NCBI RefSeq assembly: GCF_024171765.1
Contig: NZ_JAMTCI010000001.1
Span: forward strand, 1,651,137 to 1,715,136
Direction: 5' to 3'
Origin: Williamsia deligens
GTDB lineage: Bacteria > Actinomycetota > Actinomycetes > Mycobacteriales > Mycobacteriaceae
Length of the DNA: 64,000 nt
Made by a program: the position numbers and the translations under genes. How positions within the stretch are numbered: position 1 is the stretch's first letter; the number at the start of each line of letters is the position of its first letter. Of this stretch, positions 24,420-39,919 are shown in pieces. Below the pieces are notes generated by a model. It ran no database searches. It was not told where the DNA came from and saw only the letters and a program-made list of their open reading frames with translations.

Positions 24420-26129
24420 GTGGACGGGATCGCGACGGCACCCGGTGCCCCGACCTCCGCACGCGTCCCGATGCTCACCGCGCGCGACCTCGCCGGGTGC
24501 GAGCACCGTCTCGCCCTCGATGCGGGGGTCGTCCCCGACAGCCCTCTGCCCGGCGTGGGCGAGCCGTCCGACGACGCCGTCGTCCCGGTGGAGGACCCGT
24601 CGGCGACACGTCGCAAGGAGGCCGCCGCACTGCACCGTCGGCGCGTCGCGGAGATGCTCCGCGAGTCCCACCCGGGCAACCCGGACGCCGTCGTGACGGT
24701 CGTCGGGGACACGGCGGCCGCGCGGGTCGCCGCCACCCTCGCCGCCTGCGCCGCCGGGGCGTCCTGGGTCCTCGACGCCGTCCTGCCCGACGACCGCGCC
24801 GCAGGTCGCCGCGGGTCGTCGGAGGCACTGGTGCGTGTCGACGACGGGTACGTCCCGGTCATCGTGGTCAACCACCGGATCACCGTGGCCGACACCGACG
24901 GCACGGCGATGACGAGCCCGCTCGGCGAGTGGTCGCCCGCCCGCGACGTCACCCGGTCGGTCCGGCGCCACCGTCGCGACGTCCTGCGCGTCGCGCATCT
25001 CACCCGACTGCTCGAACACGCCGGCCTCGCGAGTTCCGAGCGTCGTGCCGGTGTGATCGGGCTCGACGCCGACTGCATCCTCGTCCACGACCTCGCGGCC
25101 ACCGCGGCGTCCGGCGGCGTCGGACCGCGCGACCCGCTGGCCGACTACGACGCGACGCTCGCGGTCCGACGCGCCGTCGCCGCAGGCACGGTCGTCACGA
25201 CGCCCAGCCGGATCGGCGAGTGCCGGTCGTGCCGATGGTGGGGTCGGTGCGGCCCGGAACTCGTCGCCGCCCACGACATCAGCCTGGTGGCCACCGGCAA
25301 CCAGACCGCCGTGCTCCGCGTGGCCGGGATCACCACTGTCGACGACCTCGCCCGCGGTGACGTACCCGAGCCTGTCGTCGCCGAGTTCCCGGGTGGCGAC
25401 GTGGGGGACGCGGTCGTGGTCGCCCGGGCGTGGCTGGCGGGTGTCCCGCTCGTGCGCCGGGTCGAGAGGCCGGCGGTGGTCCGCGCCGACGTCGAGGTCG
25501 ACGTCGACATGGAGAGCCACGGCGAGGACGGCGCCTACCTCTGGGGGACGCTGCTGACCGACCGCACGGACCCGTCGGTCCCCGTCGTCTACCGGCCGTT
25601 CGCGACGTGGGACCCGTTGCCCACCACCGACGAGGGGCGATCGTTCGCCGAGTTCTGGTCGTGGCTGACGGCGCGACGCGAGGAGACCGTGGCGGCCGGG
25701 AAGACCTTCGCCGCCTACTGCTACTCGCAGTCGGCGGAGAACCGGTGGCTGATCGGCTCGGCGCGGCGGTTCGCGGGGATGCCCGGCGTACCCGCACTCG
25801 ACGACGTGACCGCGTTCATCGGCTCGCAGCACTGGGTGGACGTGTACGAGGCGGTCGGTGCGGGGTTCATCTGCCCACAGGGCAAGGGGCTCAAGAAGAT
25901 CGCGCCCGTGGCCGGGTTCTCCTGGCGTGACCCCGACGCCGGCGGCGAGGCGTCGATGGAGTGGTATCGGCTGGCGGTCGGGTACGAGGGCACCGTTCCC
26001 GACACCGCATCCCGCGAGCGGATCCTGCGCTACAACGAGGACGACGTGTGGGCCACGAAGGTGCTGCGTGAGTGGATCGACGAGCGGGCCGCCTCGGCGG
26101 TGCCCCATCGTGACGATCTCCACGCCTGA
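24420..26129 (+). CDS. TM0106-family RecB-like nuclease with RNase H-like exonuclease domain
   Basis: 569 aa from a GTG with a strong AGGAGGA 7 nt upstream (24406-24412). The N-terminal half is RecB-nuclease-like and has the cysteines of an AddB/Cas4-type Fe-S cluster: one near residue 25 (LAGCEHRLAL) and three in CRSCRWWGRC near residue 270. The C-terminal half (from about residue 355) is a DEDD exonuclease-like RNase_H_2 domain: DVDMES at the start, YSQSAENRWL in the middle, and YNEDDVWATKVL at the end. Probably a single-strand DNA exonuclease in repair. The physiological role of the family is not settled. It is divergent from the DUF6474 gene. Confidence 0.88.
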   Translation: MDGIATAPGAPTSARVPMLTARDLAGCEHRLALDAGVVPDSPLPGVGEPSDDAVVPVEDPSATRRKEAAALHRRRVAEMLRESHPGNPDAVVTVVGDTAAARVAATLAACAAGASWVLDAVLPDDRAAGRRGSSEALVRVDDGYVPVIVVNHRITVADTDGTAMTSPLGEWSPARDVTRSVRRHRRDVLRVAHLTRLLEHAGLASSERRAGVIGLDADCILVHDLAATAASGGVGPRDPLADYDATLAVRRAVAAGTVVTTPSRIGECRSCRWWGRCGPELVAAHDISLVATGNQTAVLRVAGITTVDDLARGDVPEPVVAEFPGGDVGDAVVVARAWLAGVPLVRRVERPAVVRADVEVDVDMESHGEDGAYLWGTLLTDRTDPSVPVVYRPFATWDPLPTTDEGRSFAEFWSWLTARREETVAAGKTFAAYCYSQSAENRWLIGSARRFAGMPGVPALDDVTAFIGSQHWVDVYEAVGAGFICPQGKGLKKIAPVAGFSWRDPDAGGEASMEWYRLAVGYEGTVPDTASRERILRYNEDDVWATKVLREWIDERAASAVPHRDDLHA

Positions 26130-28340: not shown

Positions 28341-28970
28341 TCAGGCCGGGACGATGAGGCCCTTGCCCTGGCTCGAGGCCTTCGCGAAACGCTCGGCGGC
28401 GTCGGCCCAGTTGACGACGTTCCACCAGGCCTTCACGTAGTCCGGCTTCACGTTCTGGTAGTCGAGGTAGAAGGCGTGCTCCCACATGTCGAGCATGACG
28501 ATGGGGACCAGCCCGACCGAGGTGTTGCCGTGCTGGTCGGTCAGCTGCTGGATGACCAGCTTGCCCTCGATGGTGTCGTAGCCGAGGATCGCCCAGCCGC
28601 TGCCCTGCAGGGTGGTGGCGGCCGCGGTGAAGTGCGCCTGGAACTTGTCGAAGCCGCCGAACTGGTCGTCGATGGCTGCGGCCAGCTCGCCCTCGGGCTT
28701 GTCGCCACCGTTGGGCGACAGGTTCTTCCAGAAGATCGAGTGGTTGGTGTGGCCACCGAGGTGGAACGCCAGGTTCGCCGAGAGCTGGAACACCTTGTCC
28801 GCGATGGTGCCGTCCTCGCGGGCGGCGGCGGCCTTCTCCAGGGCGGTGTTCGCACCCTTCACGTAGGTCGCATGGTGCTTGCTGTGGTGCAGCTCCATGA
28901 TCCGGCCGGAGATGTGCGGCTCGAGTGCCGCGTAGTCGTAATCGAGATCCGGCAAGGTGTATTCACCCAC
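28341..28970 (-). CDS. sodA: Superoxide dismutase, Fe/Mn type
   Basis: 209 aa. All four metal ligands are visible: His in [13 protein letters not shown], His in [10 protein letters not shown], and Asp/His in [14 protein letters not shown]. The [10 protein letters not shown] segment is also typical. It removes superoxide. There is no Sec signal peptide, as in the mycobacterial enzyme, which is nevertheless exported. The residue set does not safely tell Fe from Mn. The gene has its own hairpin and a 600-bp upstream gap, so it is transcribed alone. Confidence 0.97.
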
Positions 28971-29585: not shown

Positions 29586-31106
29586 GTGGAGTGGCAGGGG
29601 GCGCGGTCGGCGGAGCTGTACGCCGCCTTCGCCGAGAACGCCGACGCCGACATCACGCTCAAGCTGCTGCGGTCCCGCTCGGCGATGGTGACCCTCGCGC
29701 TGATGGCCGCACGCCTCGGCGACGGCCAGGTCGACGGCGACCACCTCGTGGACGGTCTGCGCGCCGACCTCGACGACCTCGCGTCGCACTGGACCGACCG
29801 TGATCTGTCCGTGCCGGCCCCGGAGGAACTGCTCGACCGCTGGGTCCGCGAGGGCTACGTGGCCCGCACCCTCGACCCGGATCGGGACGTGGAGCGCTAC
29901 CACCTCACCCGCGGCGCGACGACCGCACTCACCCAGGTGCAGGCCGTCCGACACGACCGGTCCGTCGCGACCGAGACGACCATGCAGATGGTCGTCGGGC
30001 GACTCGGCGACATCGCGGTGGCGATCAACCCCGACCCCTCGGAGCACCTGCGTGACCTCGACGCGAAGATCGCCGAGCTGACGGCGCGCCGGGCGGAGCT
30101 CGTCGCCGGCGCCGTGCCCGTCGTCGACGACCGCGGCATCCGGGACGACATCAGGATGGTGACCTCGCTCGCCGAGCGCATGCCCGCCGACATCATCGGC
30201 TACGGCGAGAAGTTGCGGGAGAACTCCCGGACGCTGCTGACGAGTGGCCTCGACGACCGTGCGGGGGCCTACGCCGATGCGCTCAACCGCATGTTCGACG
30301 GTCACGACGAGTTGGCCCGCTCACCGGAGGGCAGCGCCTTCGACGCGTTCTACACGCTCGTCTCCGACCATCGACTCCGCGACGCGCTCGAGGGCCACAT
30401 CGATGCGATCCTCGCCGGACTGCCGGACCTGCCGCGGGATCAGGCGCAGACCTTGGCGCGGTTCATCGACCGCATGTGGGACGAGGTGCAGCGCGTCGAC
30501 GAGATCCGCGGCCAGGTGTACCGACGCATCAACACGTTCGTCAAAGGTGGCGACTTCCTCGACCACCGGGCGCTGCGCGAGCAGCTCGTCGAGGCGCAGA
30601 AGGCGGCGGCCGCTGCGTTCGAGACCGTCTCGGCCGGCAAGGATATCGGGGTCACACTGCCCATCGCCGTGGTCGACGCGAACTCGGTCGGGGCGCTCTC
30701 GCTGCACGACGGCGTCGTGGACCTGCCCGACGACGTCGCCGCCACCGTCGGCGAGATCGACATCGACCCCGCGGCCCTCGTCGGCAGCGAGACCATCGAC
30801 TGGCACCACCTCACCGACGCGGTGAACCGTGCGGTCGGCTCCGGAGAGGCCGACCTCGCCGCGGTCCTCGCCCAGCTCGACACGCCCCGCGTCGGTGACG
30901 TCGTCGGGGTGTGGTCGCTCGCGCAGCGGCACGGCAGCGTGGGGCCGGAGGGGGATCGCATCGTCGTCGATGCGCACACCGCACGGGGCCTGCGGTCGAT
31001 CGCCGTGCCCGTCATGCGATTCCGTGAGGTCATCGACGCCCCGGCGTCGGCCACACCGACCGCCACCCATCTTCTCGACGACCTCGGATCGCAGGGAGTG
31101 TCATGA
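29586..31106 (+). CDS. jetA: Wadjet/Mks component JetA-like (DUF3375, MksF/kleisin-like)
   Basis: 506 aa from a GTG. DUF3375 family: starts with QGARSAELYAAFAEN, then SAMVTLALMAARLGDG and a winged-helix-like region. In Wadjet and MksBEF complexes this protein is the kleisin that links the two ATPase subunits. Its stop overlaps the ATG of the DUF4194 gene as ATGA, so the genes form one operon. Length is normal for the family (about 480-510), with no break. Annotation rests on family recall plus the three-gene order DUF3375-DUF4194-SbcC-like. Confidence 0.88.
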   Translation: MEWQGARSAELYAAFAENADADITLKLLRSRSAMVTLALMAARLGDGQVDGDHLVDGLRADLDDLASHWTDRDLSVPAPEELLDRWVREGYVARTLDPDRDVERYHLTRGATTALTQVQAVRHDRSVATETTMQMVVGRLGDIAVAINPDPSEHLRDLDAKIAELTARRAELVAGAVPVVDDRGIRDDIRMVTSLAERMPADIIGYGEKLRENSRTLLTSGLDDRAGAYADALNRMFDGHDELARSPEGSAFDAFYTLVSDHRLRDALEGHIDAILAGLPDLPRDQAQTLARFIDRMWDEVQRVDEIRGQVYRRINTFVKGGDFLDHRALREQLVEAQKAAAAAFETVSAGKDIGVTLPIAVVDANSVGALSLHDGVVDLPDDVAATVGEIDIDPAALVGSETIDWHHLTDAVNRAVGSGEADLAAVLAQLDTPRVGDVVGVWSLAQRHGSVGPEGDRIVVDAHTARGLRSIAVPVMRFREVIDAPASATPTATHLLDDLGSQGVS

Positions 31107-31927
31107 CCACGGACGAGACAGACGGTGTGACCGAGGGCGGCGTGACCGACGGGGCCGTGATGGAGGGGGACGATCTCTTCGTCGATGCGCCGGAGGCCGA
31201 CGCGACGCCGTCGGTGGACCTGTCGCACTTCTCGTTCGACGGGTCGGACCCGGTGGGCGAGGACACCTCGGGTCCCGTGCAGCCCCGGTTCGACGGTGAC
31301 ACCTCCGAACTGCCCGCGGCGGTGTGTTACGCACTCCAGGAACTGATCTCGGCGGCACACGTCAGCGGGCGGTCGCGGAACTGGCGGGCCATCGAGGCCA
31401 ACGAGACCGTCATCCGGTCGCGGTTGTCGGAGCTGAACCTCGTCCTCGAACTCGACGTGGAGCGGCGTTACGCCTTCACCCGCCAGGTCGCCGACGCCGA
31501 CCCCCGCCAGCGGACCATCCTGCGGTCCTCCACCCTCACCCTGGCGGCGTCGGTCCTCACGTTGTTCCTGCGTCAGAAGTACCTGACGAGCGTGGACGAG
31601 ACGGCCACCGTCGACCGCGCCGAGATGGTGGACCACCTGATGACCTACAAGCCCGTCCGCGACACCGACGAGGCCGGGTTCGCGCGTCGGATCGACGCCG
31701 CCATCAACGTCCTGGAGAACCGCAAGATCATCCGCGCTATCCCCGGCACCGACCGCTACGTCGTGCACGGCGTCATCGCGGCGCTGCTGACACCCGAGAC
31801 CATCGAGTCGTACACGCAGGCCTACCGGCGCCTGTCCGGCGACGGTCCCGACATCACCGACCTCGATCCCGAGACCGCCGGTGATGTCGAGACCGCAGGC
31901 GACACCACCGACGGAGGCGAGCGATGA
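31103..31927 (+). CDS. jetB: Wadjet/Mks component JetB-like (DUF4194, MksE/KITE-like)
   Basis: 274 aa. The first 70 residues are acidic and low-complexity (repeats of D, E, G, V, T). The DUF4194 domain then covers about residues 75-235: AVCYALQELISAAHVSG, RQRTILRSSTLTLAASVLTLFLRQKYL, VDHLMTYKPVRDTDE, RKIIRAIPGTDRYVV. These proteins are winged-helix (KITE) partners of the kleisin. The acidic tail at the end overlaps the start of the next gene as ATGA. Slightly longer than many JetB proteins because of the N-terminal acidic extension. Confidence 0.88.
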   Translation: MTTDETDGVTEGGVTDGAVMEGDDLFVDAPEADATPSVDLSHFSFDGSDPVGEDTSGPVQPRFDGDTSELPAAVCYALQELISAAHVSGRSRNWRAIEANETVIRSRLSELNLVLELDVERRYAFTRQVADADPRQRTILRSSTLTLAASVLTLFLRQKYLTSVDETATVDRAEMVDHLMTYKPVRDTDEAGFARRIDAAINVLENRKIIRAIPGTDRYVVHGVIAALLTPETIESYTQAYRRLSGDGPDITDLDPETAGDVETAGDTTDGGER

Positions 31928-34900
31928 CCGACACACTCGACGCCCCGACACGGGCGGACCACCAGACGTCGACGCGACGGACCGTGGCCATCGGACAGTT
32001 CCGACTGACCCGGATCCAGCTGGTCAACTGGGGGACGTTCCACGGCTACAAGGACTTCCCGATCGACGAGCGGGGTGTGCTGCTGACCGGGCCGTCCGGG
32101 TCGGGCAAGTCGTCGCTCATGGACGGCCATTCGGTGGTGCTGCTGCCCACCTACGACCAGGGTTTCAACGCCTCGGCGGATCTCACCGCGAAGGGCGCCA
32201 AGCGCGCCGCCCGGTCCATGGCCGACTACGTCCGCGGCGCCTGGGCCGAGAACGACGACGAGTACAGCCAGTCGCAGGTGCAGTACCTCCGCGGGGCGGG
32301 GGCGACGTGGTCGGCCATCGCCGCCACCTACGACAACGGCGCCGGGTCCGTCACGACCGCGGTGGCGATCAAGTGGTTCCCGGGGTCGGGAAACGACGGC
32401 GCCAGCCTGCGATCGTGGTACCAGCTGCACACCGGTGAGATGGATCTGCTGGACCTGAACGACTGGGCCGCAGGTGGATTCGACATCCGCTCCTATCGCG
32501 CGTCGCATCCCGACGTGGCCTGCTTCGACGTACAGAGCGCGTATTCCGACGCCCTGCGCCGTCGGGTGGGCATCGGGGCGTCCTCGGCGGCGCTGTCGCT
32601 GATGGGCAAGGCCAAGGCGATGAAGAACGTCGGCGACCTCAACCTGTTCATCCGCACCTACATGCTCGACCGGCCCGACACGTACTCCAAGGCACAGCGT
32701 CTCATCGAGAACTTCACCCAGCTCGACGAGGCGTATCAGGCGGCTGCCCGCGCGCACGCGCAGGAGAAGGTGCTGCGCCCCATCCCCGACGCGTGGGAGG
32801 CCTACCGCGGCGCGGAACGGTCGACGACGCGTGCCGGCGAACTCCTCGGACCGCCGATGCGGGCGTTCATGCGCGAGCACCGCGCGGTCCTGCTGCGCGC
32901 CAAGCTCGACGGTATCGAGGACCAGCGCACCGCACTCGACAACGAGGTGGCCCACTGGGAGAACGTCGCCGACGACCGCGAGGCGCGACACACGTCCCTG
33001 CGGGACCAGCTGACCGTCGACAAGGGCGAGCTCACGACGCTCGAGTCCGAGCTGAAGGCGTTCGAGCAGCAGGTGACCGCGCGCAACCGGGCGTACGAGC
33101 GCTACGCCGCGATCGTCGGTCGGCTGGGGGAGCAGACGCCCACCACGGCAGACGAGTTCGCGGCCCTGCGCGATCGCGCCCCGTCGCTGGGCCGTGCCGC
33201 CACCGAGGCCGCGGAATCCCTCGCGTCCCGGGCGCATGCGGTGTTCACCGCCGAGTCCGACGCGCGGCGTGACCACGATGCCGTCGTCGACGAGCTCACC
33301 ACCCTGACCGCACGGCGGTCGCTGCTGCCGGCGGGTGCGTTGGCGCAGCGGGACGCGATCGCGACGGGCACCGGCCTCGCCCCTGCCGACCTCCCCTACG
33401 CGGCGGAGCTGATGGAGGTCGCGCCGGAGCACCGGGATCGGTGGGCGGGGGCGGCGGAACGGGTCCTGCGAGGGCTCGGGTTGACGCTGCTGGTCCCCCA
33501 CGAGCACCGCGCACGGGTGACCGCCTTCGTCGACCGGACCAACCTCGGCGGGGTGCTGGAGTACCGCACCTACACCGGCGACGCCGATCCGGTGGCGCCG
33601 AGCGCGGGGACACTAGCCGCGCTCCTCCGGGTTGATCACACCCACCCGGCAGCGGGATGGCTGACCGGCGTCCTGGCCCGGACCGCCGACCACGTGTGCG
33701 TGGACTCGCCGGTCGATCTCGACGACCACGACCTCGCCGTCACACCCGCGGGCCTGGTGAAGGCCGGTCGGGACCGGTTCCGCAAGGACGACCGGCGTCG
33801 GGTGGACGACAGGACCCACTGGATCCTCGGCACCAACACCGACGGCAAGCGCGGTGCGCTGCAGCAGGCGCTCGTCGGGCTCGCCGCGCGATTCGAGGAG
33901 GCACGGCAGGCGTCGGCCGACATGCGCGACCTCCTCGACGAGAACCGTGACCGCGCGAAGGCCGCGGAAGCGTTGTCCGCCTACGGGTCCTGGGCCGAGC
34001 TGAACTGGTGGTCGGCACAGCGCGACGCCGACGAGCTCAGCCGTCGCATCGACGCGGTCCGCGAGAACCGGGTGGACCTCGCGGACCTGGAGGAACAGGT
34101 CGACGTCGCCCGCGCCGACTGGCGGGAGGCCGTCGCCCGCGTCGGCGCCATCAACGATCAGTTGCGCCACATCGGATCCGACTGGGACCGGTGGCTCGCC
34201 GAGCTGGAGAACAGCGACGAGACCGACGCCCTCACCGACGACGACCGCGAGTACCTGACGGGCGTGCTGGAGCAGACCCTCACCGCCGGCGGGAAGACGC
34301 TGTCGTTGGAGACCTACGGCGAGGTGCGCTCCGACCTGCGCAACGCGCTCGAGTCGGTACAGGCCGAGGCCGACGCCGAACGGGACAACGCCGAACACCG
34401 CATCGTGCGGGCGGCGGAGGCGTTCCTGCGCGAATGGCCGTCGGCCGGGACCGACGTGACCGCCGACATCCGCAGCGCCGACGACCTCGTCGCCATGCAC
34501 GCCGGCCTCGTCGAACATGGCCTCGCGTCGACCCGGGAGCGGTTCCGGCGGCTGATCACCACCGACATCTCGCACTCGGTGTCGAACCTGTACAAGGAGA
34601 TCGGCGACACGGCGAAGCGGATCCGTCGCGGCATCGGCGAGGTGAACGCCGGTCTGCAGCGGGTCGACTTCAACACCGGTACCTACCTGCAGATCGCCGT
34701 CCACCACACACCGACCGACGAGGCCGCGGAGTTCGCGCGCATCGTGGACGCGATGATCGCCGACGCGCCGGCCGCGCGTGGTGGGGACTCGGCGGTGCTC
34801 GCGCGGCAGTTCTACCGGATCAAGAACCTGGTCACGCGGCTGACGGCGACCGACGCCGAGGGCCGGCGCTGGTGTGACAACGTGCTCGACGTCCGTGCGA

Positions 34901-35334
34901 GTTTCTTCTTCTACGGCAAGGAGATGGCCCGCGACGCCGCTCCGGACGCCCCGCCGGTGCACACCTACCGCAACACGGCCACCAACTCCGGTGGCGAGCA
35001 GGAGAAGCTCGTGGCGTTCTGTCTCGCTGCGGCGCTGAGCTTCTCGCTGGGCACACCGGACGACCACCGGCCCGGGTTCGCGCCGCTCATGCTCGACGAG
35101 GCGTTCTCGAAATCGGACGAGACGTTCAGCTCGCAGTCGCTGCGGGCGTTCGAGCAGTTCGGTTTCCAGCTCATCATCGCCGCGCCGATCCGGATGGCCG
35201 GCATCGTGGAGCCGTTCATCGGACAGGTGATCCTGGTGGACAAGCGAACCGGTGACGACGGCGCCGCCCGATCGGACGGGCGGTCGGCCACCTTCGGGGA
35301 GATCGCCGAGGCGCGGTCCGTCGGCGGCGGCTGA
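31924..35334 (+). CDS. jetC: Wadjet/Mks SMC-like ATPase JetC (MksB)
   Basis: 1136 aa, SbcC/MukB-like. The Walker A is GPSGSGKSS at residues 56-64. Long heptad-rich segments, about residues 290-480 and 640-900, should form the coiled-coil arms. The ABC signature-like SGGEQEKLVAFCLA is near residue 1020, and Walker B is LMLDEAFSKSDE near 1055. All ATPase motifs are intact. The complex is a DNA-loop-extruding SMC that in Wadjet recognises small circular DNA (plasmids). The next gene is not jetD; see the AlkZ-like entry. Overlaps jetB by 4 bp and is followed by the next ATG after 5 bp. Confidence 0.92.
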   Translation: MTDTLDAPTRADHQTSTRRTVAIGQFRLTRIQLVNWGTFHGYKDFPIDERGVLLTGPSGSGKSSLMDGHSVVLLPTYDQGFNASADLTAKGAKRAARSMADYVRGAWAENDDEYSQSQVQYLRGAGATWSAIAATYDNGAGSVTTAVAIKWFPGSGNDGASLRSWYQLHTGEMDLLDLNDWAAGGFDIRSYRASHPDVACFDVQSAYSDALRRRVGIGASSAALSLMGKAKAMKNVGDLNLFIRTYMLDRPDTYSKAQRLIENFTQLDEAYQAAARAHAQEKVLRPIPDAWEAYRGAERSTTRAGELLGPPMRAFMREHRAVLLRAKLDGIEDQRTALDNEVAHWENVADDREARHTSLRDQLTVDKGELTTLESELKAFEQQVTARNRAYERYAAIVGRLGEQTPTTADEFAALRDRAPSLGRAATEAAESLASRAHAVFTAESDARRDHDAVVDELTTLTARRSLLPAGALAQRDAIATGTGLAPADLPYAAELMEVAPEHRDRWAGAAERVLRGLGLTLLVPHEHRARVTAFVDRTNLGGVLEYRTYTGDADPVAPSAGTLAALLRVDHTHPAAGWLTGVLARTADHVCVDSPVDLDDHDLAVTPAGLVKAGRDRFRKDDRRRVDDRTHWILGTNTDGKRGALQQALVGLAARFEEARQASADMRDLLDENRDRAKAAEALSAYGSWAELNWWSAQRDADELSRRIDAVRENRVDLADLEEQVDVARADWREAVARVGAINDQLRHIGSDWDRWLAELENSDETDALTDDDREYLTGVLEQTLTAGGKTLSLETYGEVRSDLRNALESVQAEADAERDNAEHRIVRAAEAFLREWPSAGTDVTADIRSADDLVAMHAGLVEHGLASTRERFRRLITTDISHSVSNLYKEIGDTAKRIRRGIGEVNAGLQRVDFNTGTYLQIAVHHTPTDEAAEFARIVDAMIADAPAARGGDSAVLARQFYRIKNLVTRLTATDAEGRRWCDNVLDVRASFFFYGKEMARDAAPDAPPVHTYRNTATNSGGEQEKLVAFCLAAALSFSLGTPDDHRPGFAPLMLDEAFSKSDETFSSQSLRAFEQFGFQLIIAAPIRMAGIVEPFIGQVILVDKRTGDDGAARSDGRSATFGEIAEARSVGGG

Positions 35335-35339
35335 CGGCC

Positions 35340-36431
35340 ATGCCGCAGGAGATCACCGACCGCGTCTGGACCTCGACGCTGCTGGAGCGCCAGCACCTGC
35401 TCGGGCGGGTGGACGAGGACGTCATCGAGGTGCTGGACCGGTGCGTGGGCGTGCAGTCGCAGGACCCCCGAGCGCCGTTCCCGGCGTTGGCCGCCCGGAT
35501 CGACGGGTTCGACCCGGCTGACCTCGACGCCTTGCTGACCGATCGGACCGTCGTGCGCATGGCGACGCTGCGGGGCACGGTCATGCTCACCGACGGCGAG
35601 GACGCGCGGTGGATCCGGGCACTGGCGCAACCGACGCTCGACGCGGCCGCGCGGCCGCACGTGAGGAAGCTGGTGTCGGCCGGGGCCGACGACGTCGTCG
35701 CCGCGGCGCGGGAACTGCTGTCGGGGGCGGTGATCGGCGGCGCGGAACTGGGATCGGCGCTGACCGAACGGTTCCCCGGCGAGAACGCCGGCACGCTGAC
35801 GACGATCGCCCGCTGCGCGCTCCCGCTCGTCCAGGTGCCACCCCGTGGGCTGTTCACCGGTTCGGGTGCTCCCACCTACGCGCTCCTCGACGACTGGATC
35901 GGGCCGGGTGAACCCGCGGTGACCGGGGACGAGGCACGCAAGGACCTGATCCGCCTGTACCTGCGGGGTTTCGGGCCCGCGAGTCTCGCGGCGATCCAGA
36001 CGTGGTCGGGACTGACGCGACTGCGGCCGCTTCTCGACGCGATGGACTCCGACTGGGAGATCGAGAAGCTGCCCGGTCCGGACGGGGTCGAGCTGTTCGA
36101 TCTCGACGGGCTCGACCGGTCCGACGCCGGCGACTTCCCCGTCCGTCTGCTCGCCCCGTTCGACCATGTCGTGACCGCGAACGCCGACCGACGACGCGTC
36201 CTCGACGAGGACGTGTTCGCCGCCCTGCAGACCCCGAACGGACAGGTCCCGGGAATGGTCCTGGTGGACGGGCGGGTCGTCGGCACCTGGTCTGTGGGCC
36301 CAGACGGCCGGGTGACGGCGGACCTGCTCAGGTCGGTGCCGCGGTCACGGACGCGCGACCTGTCCGACGAGTGCGACGCCCTGACCGAGTTCCTGCGACA
36401 GGGACGTCAGGACGTCATAGCCGGCCGGTAG
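35340..36431 (+). CDS. Winged-helix HTH_42 / AlkZ-like DNA-glycosylase family protein, in the jetD position
   Basis: 363 aa, 5 bp after the jetC stop, so the last gene of the operon. It belongs to the HTH_42 (COG3214, AlkZ/YcaQ) family: VGVQSQDPRAP near residue 36-46 contains Q39-S-Q41, the position of the QxQ/QxD catalytic motif of AlkZ-type glycosylases. It also has VRMATLRGTVMLTD, LIRLYLRGFGPASLAAIQTWSGL and the late LLAPFDHVVTANADRRRVL. It has none of the features expected for JetD (DUF3322 plus a DUF2220 Toprim with paired acidic residues). It may remove damaged bases or unhook crosslinks, or be a structural DNA-binding part. It is not a JetD orthologue. Confidence 0.85.
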   Translation: MPQEITDRVWTSTLLERQHLLGRVDEDVIEVLDRCVGVQSQDPRAPFPALAARIDGFDPADLDALLTDRTVVRMATLRGTVMLTDGEDARWIRALAQPTLDAAARPHVRKLVSAGADDVVAAARELLSGAVIGGAELGSALTERFPGENAGTLTTIARCALPLVQVPPRGLFTGSGAPTYALLDDWIGPGEPAVTGDEARKDLIRLYLRGFGPASLAAIQTWSGLTRLRPLLDAMDSDWEIEKLPGPDGVELFDLDGLDRSDAGDFPVRLLAPFDHVVTANADRRRVLDEDVFAALQTPNGQVPGMVLVDGRVVGTWSVGPDGRVTADLLRSVPRSRTRDLSDECDALTEFLRQGRQDVIAGR

Positions 36432-36493: not shown

Positions 36494-37258
36494 TCAGTCC
36501 GTCCCGGGGAGGCGACCGGTCCGGGGGTTCCTCGCGGTGATGCAGTAGGGCCGGCCGGTCGGGTCGGCCATGACCGTCCAGTTGCCGTGGTGCGCGACGA
36601 CCTCGGCGCCCCAGTCCTCGTGTCGCGACACCTCGTCGGCCGGGTGTGTGCTCGCGAGGTCGACGTGCGCGCTGACCGAGCCGGAGGTCAACCGCTGCAA
36701 CAGGATCCGGATCGGCATCTCGTCCGGGCGCTCCAGCGCACGGAACTCGGGCCGGGACGCGGGTTCCAGCGCCCACCCGGTGATGCCGCTGAAGAAGGCG
36801 CACTCGTCGTCGAAGCGACGGGCCGGCACGTCGACGCAGATCTGATCGATGATGCTGATCGTGTCCCCGGGCCAGCGGATCGGCCGGGACCGCTCGTGCT
36901 CGCCGTTCCACGGGACGATGCCGATCGTGAACCCGGACGGGGAGGTCACGGTGATGCCGTCGGGGGTCGACTCACCGACGGTCGCGCCCCAGGCGGCGGC
37001 AGCGGCCGCGCCGGCCTCGACGTCGTCGACGTGGAGATCGAGATGGACTCCGCCCACACCGGTCTCGACGCGCTGGACCCGTAGGTGGGGGTCGCCGGTG
37101 AACGGTTCCAACGACGCGAACTGCCGCCGGTCCCCGCGCGGCGGCGACACGGTGCTCCCCGCGATCGCGCGCCAGAAGGTCACCTCGTCGCCGAACTCGT
37201 CGGCGGGGAAGTCGAAGACGGCGCTGAGCCAGCGGATCTGGACCGGCGCGCTCGTCAC
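36494..37258 (-). CDS. VOC-family protein, two glyoxalase-like domains
   Basis: 254 aa from a GTG at 37258 that overlaps the upstream stop (GTGA). Two vicinal-oxygen-chelate halves: VQIRWLSAVFDFPADEF with GGVHLDLHVDDVEA, and a second from DQICVDVPARRFDDE with VSAHVDLAS. The end has WTVMADPTGRPYCIT, the usual last VOC strand with a metal-type Glu replaced. Function unspecific: possible lyase, dioxygenase or resistance protein. It is co-transcribed with the mycothiol-type gene upstream. Confidence 0.8.
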   Translation of the reverse strand: MTSAPVQIRWLSAVFDFPADEFGDEVTFWRAIAGSTVSPPRGDRRQFASLEPFTGDPHLRVQRVETGVGGVHLDLHVDDVEAGAAAAAAWGATVGESTPDGITVTSPSGFTIGIVPWNGEHERSRPIRWPGDTISIIDQICVDVPARRFDDECAFFSGITGWALEPASRPEFRALERPDEMPIRILLQRLTSGSVSAHVDLASTHPADEVSRHEDWGAEVVAHHGNWTVMADPTGRPYCITARNPRTGRLPGTD

Positions 37259-38076
37259 CAGCGGACCCGCTGCCGGGCTCGCCATCGGTGCAGGGTCTCG
37301 GGGTCGCCGTCGACGGTGACCTCCTCGCCGCGGTTCCACAGGCCGAGGTAGAGCTGGGCCGCGGTGCCCGTCCAGCGTGCGTCGGCGTCGTCGGCCGCAC
37401 CGGGGGTCACCGTCAGCGCCTCCTCGGTGACCGCCAGGGTCCACGCGGCGTCCACGTCGTCGGCGGCCACGACGATGCTCAACGGCGACCCGTCCCACAG
37501 CTTCGATCGGCCGCGGGTCGAGAACCGCACGAGCAACTCGTCGAGACCGTCGACGGCGAACGCCGGCGTCAGCACACCGTCGAGCGCAGCGGTGACCTCG
37601 GCCGCCGTCGGCACCGATCCGCGGGCGACCGCCATCGCGTCGACCGCGTGGACGACGGTCTCGCTAGCCTGACGTCGGTGCCAGAACTCCACCGGCGTGC
37701 GATCGGTGTCCATGAACACCCACGCGTCGAGGTCGGCCGGGGCGTCACGCAGTACGGCGACGAGAGCGTCGGCGCCGTCGAGCAACCACGCCGGCAGGTC
37801 GGGCACACGCACCTGCGACAACACGGCGGCCTCGTCCGCGAACGGTGCCTCGCCGCCGACGAGCTGCGCGCGCGCCCAGCGGTGCACCATCCCCAGGTGC
37901 GCGGTGAGCTGGCGCACCGACCACTGCGGACAGGTCGGTACCGCCGCACCGGACTCCGCGACGAGTACCGCGGTGAACGTCGTGCGCGCGGCCACCTCGA
38001 CGGCCGTCCGGAACTCGTCGGACGACACGGCGCGCACGTCGGGCAGGACGGTGTCGGCGGGTGTGGGGTCGGACAC
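37255..38076 (-). CDS. Maleylpyruvate isomerase/DinB-type mycothiol-dependent family protein
   Basis: 273 aa from a GTG at 38076. The N-terminal DinB-like four-helix fold shows PTCPQWSVRQLTAHLGMVHRWA (Cys plus first metal His) and the later HRRQASETVVHAVDAM (second and third His). A C-terminal MDMPI_C domain follows. Proteins of this kind use mycothiol and a divalent metal; named reactions include maleylpyruvate isomerisation. The exact substrate cannot be told. Its stop overlaps the VOC gene and 5 bp separate it from the LLM gene, making a three-gene minus-strand operon. Confidence 0.85.
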   Translation of the reverse strand: MSDPTPADTVLPDVRAVSSDEFRTAVEVAARTTFTAVLVAESGAAVPTCPQWSVRQLTAHLGMVHRWARAQLVGGEAPFADEAAVLSQVRVPDLPAWLLDGADALVAVLRDAPADLDAWVFMDTDRTPVEFWHRRQASETVVHAVDAMAVARGSVPTAAEVTAALDGVLTPAFAVDGLDELLVRFSTRGRSKLWDGSPLSIVVAADDVDAAWTLAVTEEALTVTPGAADDADARWTGTAAQLYLGLWNRGEEVTVDGDPETLHRWRARQRVRW

Positions 38077-39052: not shown

Positions 39053-39919
39053 GTGACCACACCACGTCAGCGCGGCCCGCTGCATCGCGTCCTCGCCCGA
39101 CTCACCGGCGCCGGCCCCGAGCGGGTCGCGGTGGTGCGGCTCGAGGGCCACATCGGCACCGTCGGTCTCGGCCGCGGCGGCCTCACCGCGGACGGGGTGG
39201 AGAAGACCCTCGAGCGGGCCTTCACCGGTGACCGCCTCAAGGCCGTCGTCCTGGTCATCAACTCACCCGGCGGCTCCCCGGCACAGTCGGAGTACATCGC
39301 CGAGCGCATTCGCCAGCTCGCGTCGGAGAACGGCGTCCGGGTGCTCGCCTTCTGCGAGGACGTCGCGGCGTCCGGCGGGTACTGGATCGCCTGCGCGGCC
39401 GACGAGATCTTCGCCGCGCGGACATCGGTCGTCGGCTCGATCGGCGTCGTGACGAGCGGGTTCGGCGCCGTCGACCTGCTCGCCCGCGCCGGGCTCGAAC
39501 GCCGCATCCACACCGCGGGCAGCAACAAGGCACGACTCGACACGTTCCGCCCCGAGGACCCCGAGGACGTCGCCTGGCTCGAGGCACTCCAGTCCGACCT
39601 CCACGAGGCGTTCATCGCGTGGGTCCGGCAACGGCGGGGGACCAAACTGCACGGCGACGACAGCGAGCTCTTCTCGGGGGACGTGTGGGTCGGACGGAGG
39701 GCCGTCGACGTGGGCCTCGCCGACGCGGTCGGTGTCCTGCGATCGGTCATCGCCGAGCGGTATCCCGACGCCGACATCGACGTGATCGCCCCGCCGAAGC
39801 CGTTGATCGCCCGTCTCACCGGCGGCGGCGTCGAGATGTCCGGCGTCGTCGACGCCGCGGTGACGGGGACCCTGGACGCGGTGGGCCGACGAGCCCGGTG
39901 GATGTCGTTCGGGAGCTGA
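39053..39919 (+). CDS. S49-family serine peptidase (SppA-like)
   Basis: 288 aa from a GTG. The Ser/Lys dyad is seen: Ser in DVAASGGYWIACAAD near residue 107 and Lys in AGSNKARLDTF near 158; the NSPGGSPAQSEYIAERI helix is also typical. No clear N-terminal membrane segment is present, so it may be cytoplasmic, unlike classical signal-peptide peptidase SppA. Single-domain length. Possible roles include membrane protein or peptide turnover. The gene after it is 290 bp away. Confidence 0.88.
   Translation: MTTPRQRGPLHRVLARLTGAGPERVAVVRLEGHIGTVGLGRGGLTADGVEKTLERAFTGDRLKAVVLVINSPGGSPAQSEYIAERIRQLASENGVRVLAFCEDVAASGGYWIACAADEIFAARTSVVGSIGVVTSGFGAVDLLARAGLERRIHTAGSNKARLDTFRPEDPEDVAWLEALQSDLHEAFIAWVRQRRGTKLHGDDSELFSGDVWVGRRAVDVGLADAVGVLRSVIAERYPDADIDVIAPPKPLIARLTGGGVEMSGVVDAAVTGTLDAVGRRARWMSFGS

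Follow-up and report, generated by a model that had tools for sequence, protein, structure and literature searches.

A 64,000-nt stretch of the genome of the soil actinobacterium Williamsia deligens (contig NZ_JAMTCI010000001.1, positions 1,651,137 to 1,715,136; the whole stretch is called the window here) carries the genes jetA, jetB and jetC for the kleisin, KITE and SMC-like ATPase subunits of a Wadjet-type motor, followed by an alkZ-like gene for a predicted HTH_42 DNA glycosylase (Table 1). Neighbouring jet genes overlap by 4 bp, and 5 bp separate jetC from alkZ. The original prediction of three complete jet genes in this arrangement is borne out by the open reading frame coordinates, the Pfam matches and the JetC motifs, with Walker A (GPSGSGKS), signature (NSGGEQ) and Walker B (LMLDEAF) invariant in 15/15 aligned JetC sequences; its placement of an HTH_42 gene directly behind jetC agrees with the start position and PF06224 match of that gene. 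As in Wadjet type I, the JetA, JetB and JetC homologs lie in a single operon, and the best PADLOC models for the trio are the type I models JetA1, JetB1 and JetC1, in line with the Wadjet-like nature first proposed for it; the AlkZ-like protein has no PADLOC match. A sequence search of the PDB matched the window JetC to the solved JetC 8as8 (1.2e-50), and the only solved structures found for the window proteins in this way were Wadjet JetC and JetA. JetB scores 25.2 bits against the MksE family PF21980, below the cut-off of 27. The window JetC is 92% identical to those of W. serinedens and an uncultured Williamsia and 82% identical to that of W. herbipolensis.

Table 1. Genes of the jetABC neighbourhood, in window coordinates
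Feature	Position	Strand	Remarks
jetA (kleisin, DUF3375)	29586..31106	+	506 aa, GTG start; PF11855 9.7e-98; PADLOC JetA1 780 bits
jetB (KITE, DUF4194)	31103..31927	+	274 aa; PF13835 105.8 bits, 2.5e-30; PADLOC JetB1
jetC (SMC-like ATPase)	31924..35334	+	1136 aa; AAA_29 + SbcC_Walker_B; PADLOC JetC1 1057 bits
alkZ-like HTH_42 DNA glycosylase gene	35340..36431	+	363 aa; PF06224 5.2e-71; putative resident neighbour
sodA, left anchor of neighbourhood	28341..28970	-	Sod_Fe_N + Sod_Fe_C
glyoxalase/VOC protein, right anchor	36494..37285	-	PF18029
sppA-like S49 peptidase, far right anchor	39053..39919	+	PF01343; in part of class A and g9 loci (see text)

Absence of JetD

Searches with the JetD_C profile PF09983, which detected the positive control Corynebacterium glutamicum each time, extended the absence of jetD noted for the window to the whole genome (0 matches in 9 contigs, 100% complete; the DUF3322 half was not searched separately) and to the genus (0/8 genomes). 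By this profile, the JetD Toprim nuclease that belongs to Wadjet type I is missing from both, and what is found, an F-E-B gene order with no nuclease, is the composition of MksBEF without MksG. The profile likewise found nothing in the 16 genomes of the Tsukamurella-like genus g30. Across a family sample of 301 genomes, JetD is present in 59 and JetC in 123. A close JetC occurs in 12 genomes of genera g7, g11, g13 and g17, all of which fall outside the 59 JetD positives.

Conservation of JetABC and the fate of JetD

JetC is present in all 33 genomes of three genera, the window's genus (8/8), g11 (9/9) and g30 (16/16), two of the g30 matches being broken or fragmentary (split in G215, on a contig piece in G206). 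A close JetABC occurs at 20 loci in five genera, the window and L055-L073, which we call class A. Nei-Gojobori ratios of nonsynonymous to synonymous substitution (dN/dS) for seven class A pairs were 0.014-0.091 for JetC, 0.033-0.120 for JetA, 0.015-0.151 for JetB and 0.053-0.297 for AlkZ, indicating that all four genes are under purifying constraint, which is stronger on JetABC than on AlkZ. A canonical SMC candidate, whose two SMC_N halves share one open frame, is also encoded in 8/8 genomes of the window's genus, and JetABC is therefore a second SMC complex. Mobility of JetABC was considered and rejected, JetC matches being rare on plasmid records (16/72,556) and in phages (1/50,697).

The best plasmid-record match (61%) lies on the 22-kb circular 'plasmid 2' of T. 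tyrosinosolvens (L226, NZ_LR134444.1), which carries trpA, trpB, an ABC-F gene and a JetABC locus with a shortened jetA and a jetC in two pieces, and which looks like a mislabelled chromosome fragment. The jetC of Tsukamurella sp. PLM1 (L152) is split into frames of 549 and 540 aa; G215, with a jetC split likewise, is listed as 83% complete, so that sequencing errors are likely for split jetC genes.

In a JetC tree of 74 chosen rows, from which near-copies and partial rows were left out, the close clade and Tsukamurella together have 100% support, and their sister clade comprises 15 rows. JetD is adjacent in ten of these (Nocardia, Nocardiopsis, Saccharothrix, Lentzea, Actinoplanes, Actinopolyspora and a metagenome-assembled genome) and not adjacent in the other five (Phytoactinopolyspora and Actinocatenispora). 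JetC and JetD distances correlate over 30 JetD-bearing rows (r 0.94; no null was computed), as would fit two genes that descended together; JetD accordingly looks ancestral to these systems, with loss in the others. Parsimony places 3 JetD changes on the 74-row tree, of which the starred branches force 2, and 2 on a smaller tree of 26 of these rows, where they force 1. Five independent losses of JetD are not claimed, given 2-3 parsimony changes and approximately unbiased (AU) tests that reject neither a single JetD-bearing clade (p 0.35) nor a single clade of Phytoactinopolyspora and Actinocatenispora (p 0.41).

The JetB N-terminus differs between the two groups. Cross-linking is reported to locate JetD at an IFDR motif in the N-terminus of JetB (PMC10586767). 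At residue 7 or 9 of JetB, a motif F-x-x-[VI]-F is present in 10/10 JetD-bearing sister systems and in 0/35 JetD-less relatives (18 of class A, 11 Tsukamurella, 4 Phytoactinopolyspora and 2 Actinocatenispora). We regard it as a candidate JetD dock, whose absence is as expected if the dock was lost. The window JetB has instead an acidic N-terminal tail with the motif DDLFVD; this tail was not retained as a mark of JetD loss, the LF motif being found in several JetD-bearing sisters too.

A second JetABC lineage (class B; L039-L054 of genera g29, g9 and g31), with JetC identity of 33-36%, has no adjacent JetD in 16/16 loci examined and, unlike class A, stands in varied neighbourhoods. Thirteen of its 16 genomes have no JetD match and three (G057, G093, G219) have JetD elsewhere; a similar-scoring match outside the 16 loci, in G245, has JetD adjacent, and class B is thus not uniformly JetD-less. 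JetABC without JetD in its flanks was also seen at 9/9 Arthrobacter-group loci (L181, L183, L184, L186, L187, L189, L190, L191 and L193), and the five Arthrobacter-group loci in the JetC tree form a distant branch. For the distant JetD-less loci (Phytoactinopolyspora, Actinocatenispora and the Arthrobacter group), JetD was looked for with a home-made profile in flanks of up to 8 kb. Four loci (L154, L171, L180, L188) have no called jetC, and L157, L165, L185 and L192 are partial or at contig ends and uninformative on JetD. Two records are likely mislabelled or contaminated: one titled Kitasatospora arboriphila (L123, NZ_JNYV01000002.1), whose sodA-JetABC-AlkZ locus is of the Williamsia type, and one titled Acidobacteriaceae (L154, CAJCHX010000726.1), whose JetC shares 59% identity with that of the window, close to the value for Tsukamurella.

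The alkZ-like gene and the history of its site

The HTH_42 domain PF06224 covers the full length of the AlkZ-like protein, and its predicted fold, a model of moderate confidence with a mean pLDDT (predicted local distance difference test) of 73 and values under 50 around the Q-x-Q site, matches AlkZ 5uuj (E 6.2e-14, template modelling (TM) score 0.75) and AlkX 9zd6 (TM 0.68). At the Q39-S40-Q41 site both glutamines are invariant in 11/11 sequences, and Q-x-Q is kept in 39/40 aligned homologs. Domain, fold and Q-x-Q site are thus those of the AlkZ and YcaQ/AlkX glycosylases, whereas the middle residue, Ser in the window and Ser or Ala in the 39/40 homologs that keep both glutamines, departs from the published catalytic motif (Q/H)-aliphatic-Q (PMC9040887); a glycosylase role is predicted for the protein here.

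The order jetA-jetB-jetC-alkZ is found in 20/20 class A loci of five genera, with a jetC-alkZ gap of -4 to 65 bp, and because it is kept throughout we take it to be more than chance; in a set of named loci that overlaps class A, alkZ follows jetC in 17/17. The sodA gene is upstream in all 20 class A loci, indicating a fixed chromosomal site. Various inserts interrupt the sodA-jetA and alkZ-VOC junctions, while the jetC-alkZ junction is unbroken in all 20. Within the flanking DNA examined, the VOC gene is present in 15/20 class A loci.

The same site exists without JetABC. In genus g9, presumably Gordonia, 29 genomes have an ortholog of the AlkZ-like protein (49-61% identical), away from JetC where JetC is present. 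Neighbourhoods were examined in 18 of these: sodA and then alkZ are found in 18/18, msrA lies between them in 17, the VOC gene follows in 13 within the flanking DNA examined, and JetABC is present in none. The msrA-alkZ gap in the 17 loci, -4 to 68 bp, is as tight as that between jetC and alkZ, a hint that alkZ requires no more than transcription from upstream. The original prediction held that the pairing with JetABC would be fortuitous if most relatives carried the HTH_42 gene behind unrelated genes; relatives do so in g9, behind msrA, but not in class A. A search with the AlkZ-like protein (1e-20) matched 138/301 genomes, none of the 16 g30 genomes among them, and the Tsukamurella JetABC (JetC identity about 62%) is located elsewhere, with no alkZ beside it in 14/14 loci. 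In genome G000, two further full AlkZ-like matches (L002, L003) were found, and a partial one (L004, contig C5:21404-21913) inside a 1640-aa open frame; the partial match is probably to the C-terminal part of an Lhr helicase.

A trace of the msrA arrangement persists in class A, where msrA still stands between sodA and jetA in 6/20 loci (L055, L058, L059, L060, L071 and L073), recognised by PF01625 on L058 and by a profile of seven sequences at the other loci. At 18 sodA loci outside class A and g9, msrA is beside sodA in 6 (g4, g14, g24) and not in 12, and JetA was found at none within the 1.5 kb examined. Most simply, alkZ would already have stood behind msrA when jetABC entered between the two, a polarity that we infer from these arrangements; a combined SodA and AlkZ tree gives 3 changes under a midpoint root, which leaves room for later JetABC loss in some g9 lineages. 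Because alkZ sits at this site without JetABC, and because the nearest JetABC clade lacks an alkZ ortholog, AlkZ is not JetD's replacement by origin, and its proposed role as a JetD substitute was rejected on the sodA-msrA-alkZ synteny. The gene is probably that of an ordinary repair glycosylase, and it is now probably co-transcribed with jetABC.

A probable chromosomal motor and its alternatives

The window encodes a real, well-conserved JetD-less motor of the nuclease-less, Mks/Wadjet-derived kind. We consider it probable, with some reserve, that this is a Wadjet type I-derived SMC motor, kept vertically under purifying selection and organising the chromosome. Dimers of JetC with kleisin JetA and KITE JetB would bind DNA and extrude loops with ATP, like the characterised JetABC, and, as there is no JetD, no terminal cut would follow; the complex would act on the chromosome, in its folding, its segregation or its repair, and would be a second condensin alongside the canonical SMC. 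By analogy, a chromosomal role is most likely for a fixed JetD-less JetABC because of the contrast between Pseudomonas MksBEF, which has no nuclease and is reported to organise the chromosome (PMC10586767), and the MksG-bearing C. glutamicum MksB. Of the two original suggestions, the housekeeping Mks complex is retained, on the presence of JetC in every genome of the three genera, and the Wadjet variant with AlkZ as its effector is not.

Comparison with known systems places the complex close to Wadjet type I (JetABCD, EptABCD, MksBEFG of Corynebacterium), with which it shares the JetA-JetB-JetC order, the 4-bp overlaps, the type I models and the PDB matches, but from which it differs in having no JetD/MksG in genome or genus, a fixed chromosomal site in class A, and a JetB that lacks the N-terminal F-x-x-[VI]-F seen in its JetD-bearing sisters. 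Like P. aeruginosa MksBEF, it is a three-subunit SMC complex with no nuclease beside a canonical SMC; that likeness is one of description rather than of sequences. The window JetB misses the MksE cut-off, and the complex belongs to an actinobacterial branch. The JetABC-only 'Wadjet' reported for Paenarthrobacter lasiusi (PMC11719660) and the Arthrobacter-group loci also lack JetD, but their type has a different neighbourhood and sits on a distant JetC branch (28-29% identity). Among the publications listed as matches, by title and opening of the abstract, none described the JetABC-AlkZ pair or a JetD-less JetABC in these genera.

Several observations weigh against a chromosomal motor derived by JetD loss. 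MksB is reported not to influence chromosome architecture in C. glutamicum, whose system does, however, include MksG (PMC7083940); the sub-threshold JetB score means that the complex is not, by sequence, a Pseudomonas-type Mks; and the JetABC of Tsukamurella is fixed but stands in no constant neighbourhood. The motif F-x-x-[VI]-F is absent from 25/25 other, more distant JetD-bearing JetBs (25 rows, excluding L093, with no called JetB, and the badly called L091 and L089), so it is not a general mark of JetD, and only 1-2 phylogenetically independent contrasts stand behind its pattern. The number and polarity of JetD losses are unsure on the trees of 74 and 26 rows, and the single JetD-bearing clade that the AU test does not reject allows for loss plus regain.

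Among the alternatives, retained plasmid defence, in which JetABC would restrict by sequestration or through an unrecognised nuclease in trans, deserves a minor place. It fits the good matches to the PADLOC type I models, and other nuclease-like genes exist, such as one at 24420-26129, the fourth called gene upstream of jetA, whose 569-aa product has a C-terminal RNase_H_2 domain (putative nuclease). Against it, JetC is fixed in 33/33 genomes, and in class A at one site, whereas defence genes tend to be patchy; the queries used recognised no neighbouring gene common to class A and Tsukamurella, most genes around these loci being unannotated; and all four subunits are reported to be required for plasmid suppression in B. 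subtilis (PMC10586767). Decay of a former Wadjet locus, for which the missing JetD and the split jetC of one Tsukamurella might speak, was rejected and is given next to no credence, given intact motifs, dN/dS well below 1 and universal JetC in the three genera.

Two further explanations give AlkZ a part. If JetABC trapped a circle from which the glycosylase removed bases, leaving abasic sites and breaks, one would expect the constant jetC-alkZ adjacency, unbroken where other junctions are not, and the conserved Q-x-Q site. This effector reading is nevertheless unlikely, and markedly so: alkZ orthologs occupy the same place without JetABC in 18/18 g9 loci (17 of them behind msrA), the g9 genomes G015, G140, G256 and G299 have an alkZ ortholog and no JetC match, Tsukamurella has JetABC and no alkZ ortholog, alkZ evolves much faster (dN/dS 0.05-0.30 against 0.01-0.09 for jetC), and its product has no PADLOC match. 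Joint chromosome repair, with the motor loading at crosslinks or delivering the glycosylase there, has a small chance of being right. The unbroken junction favours it, as do correlated distances (r 0.91, also expected from vertical descent) and the reported unhooking of crosslinks by AlkZ/YcaQ relatives (PMC9040887; PMC7367128), but each partner occurs without the other, in Tsukamurella and at the g9 site, and a shared transcript suffices for the tight spacing, which alkZ also has behind msrA. JetABC and AlkZ may have been coupled functionally at a later stage. A more speculative form, about as doubtful, is that they became a single machine in the Williamsia lineage, the nuclease-free motor extruding the chromosome and handing stalled or crosslinked sites to the glycosylase; such a union would account for a jetC-alkZ junction that stays intact where those on both sides are broken.

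For the JetD-less chromosomal motor that we favour, the wider setting is the open idea, stated for Pseudomonas MksBEF (PMC10586767), that Wadjet motors become chromosome condensins by losing JetD. Genera in which a type I JetABC is kept and no JetD was detected, with JetC in 33/33 genomes of three of them, together with their JetD-bearing sisters, make this idea directly testable, and the candidate JetD-docking motif in JetB adds a handle for such a test. A tight neighbour 5 bp away need not be a new effector, and tools that report JetABC as 'Wadjet' may be listing housekeeping motors among defence systems.

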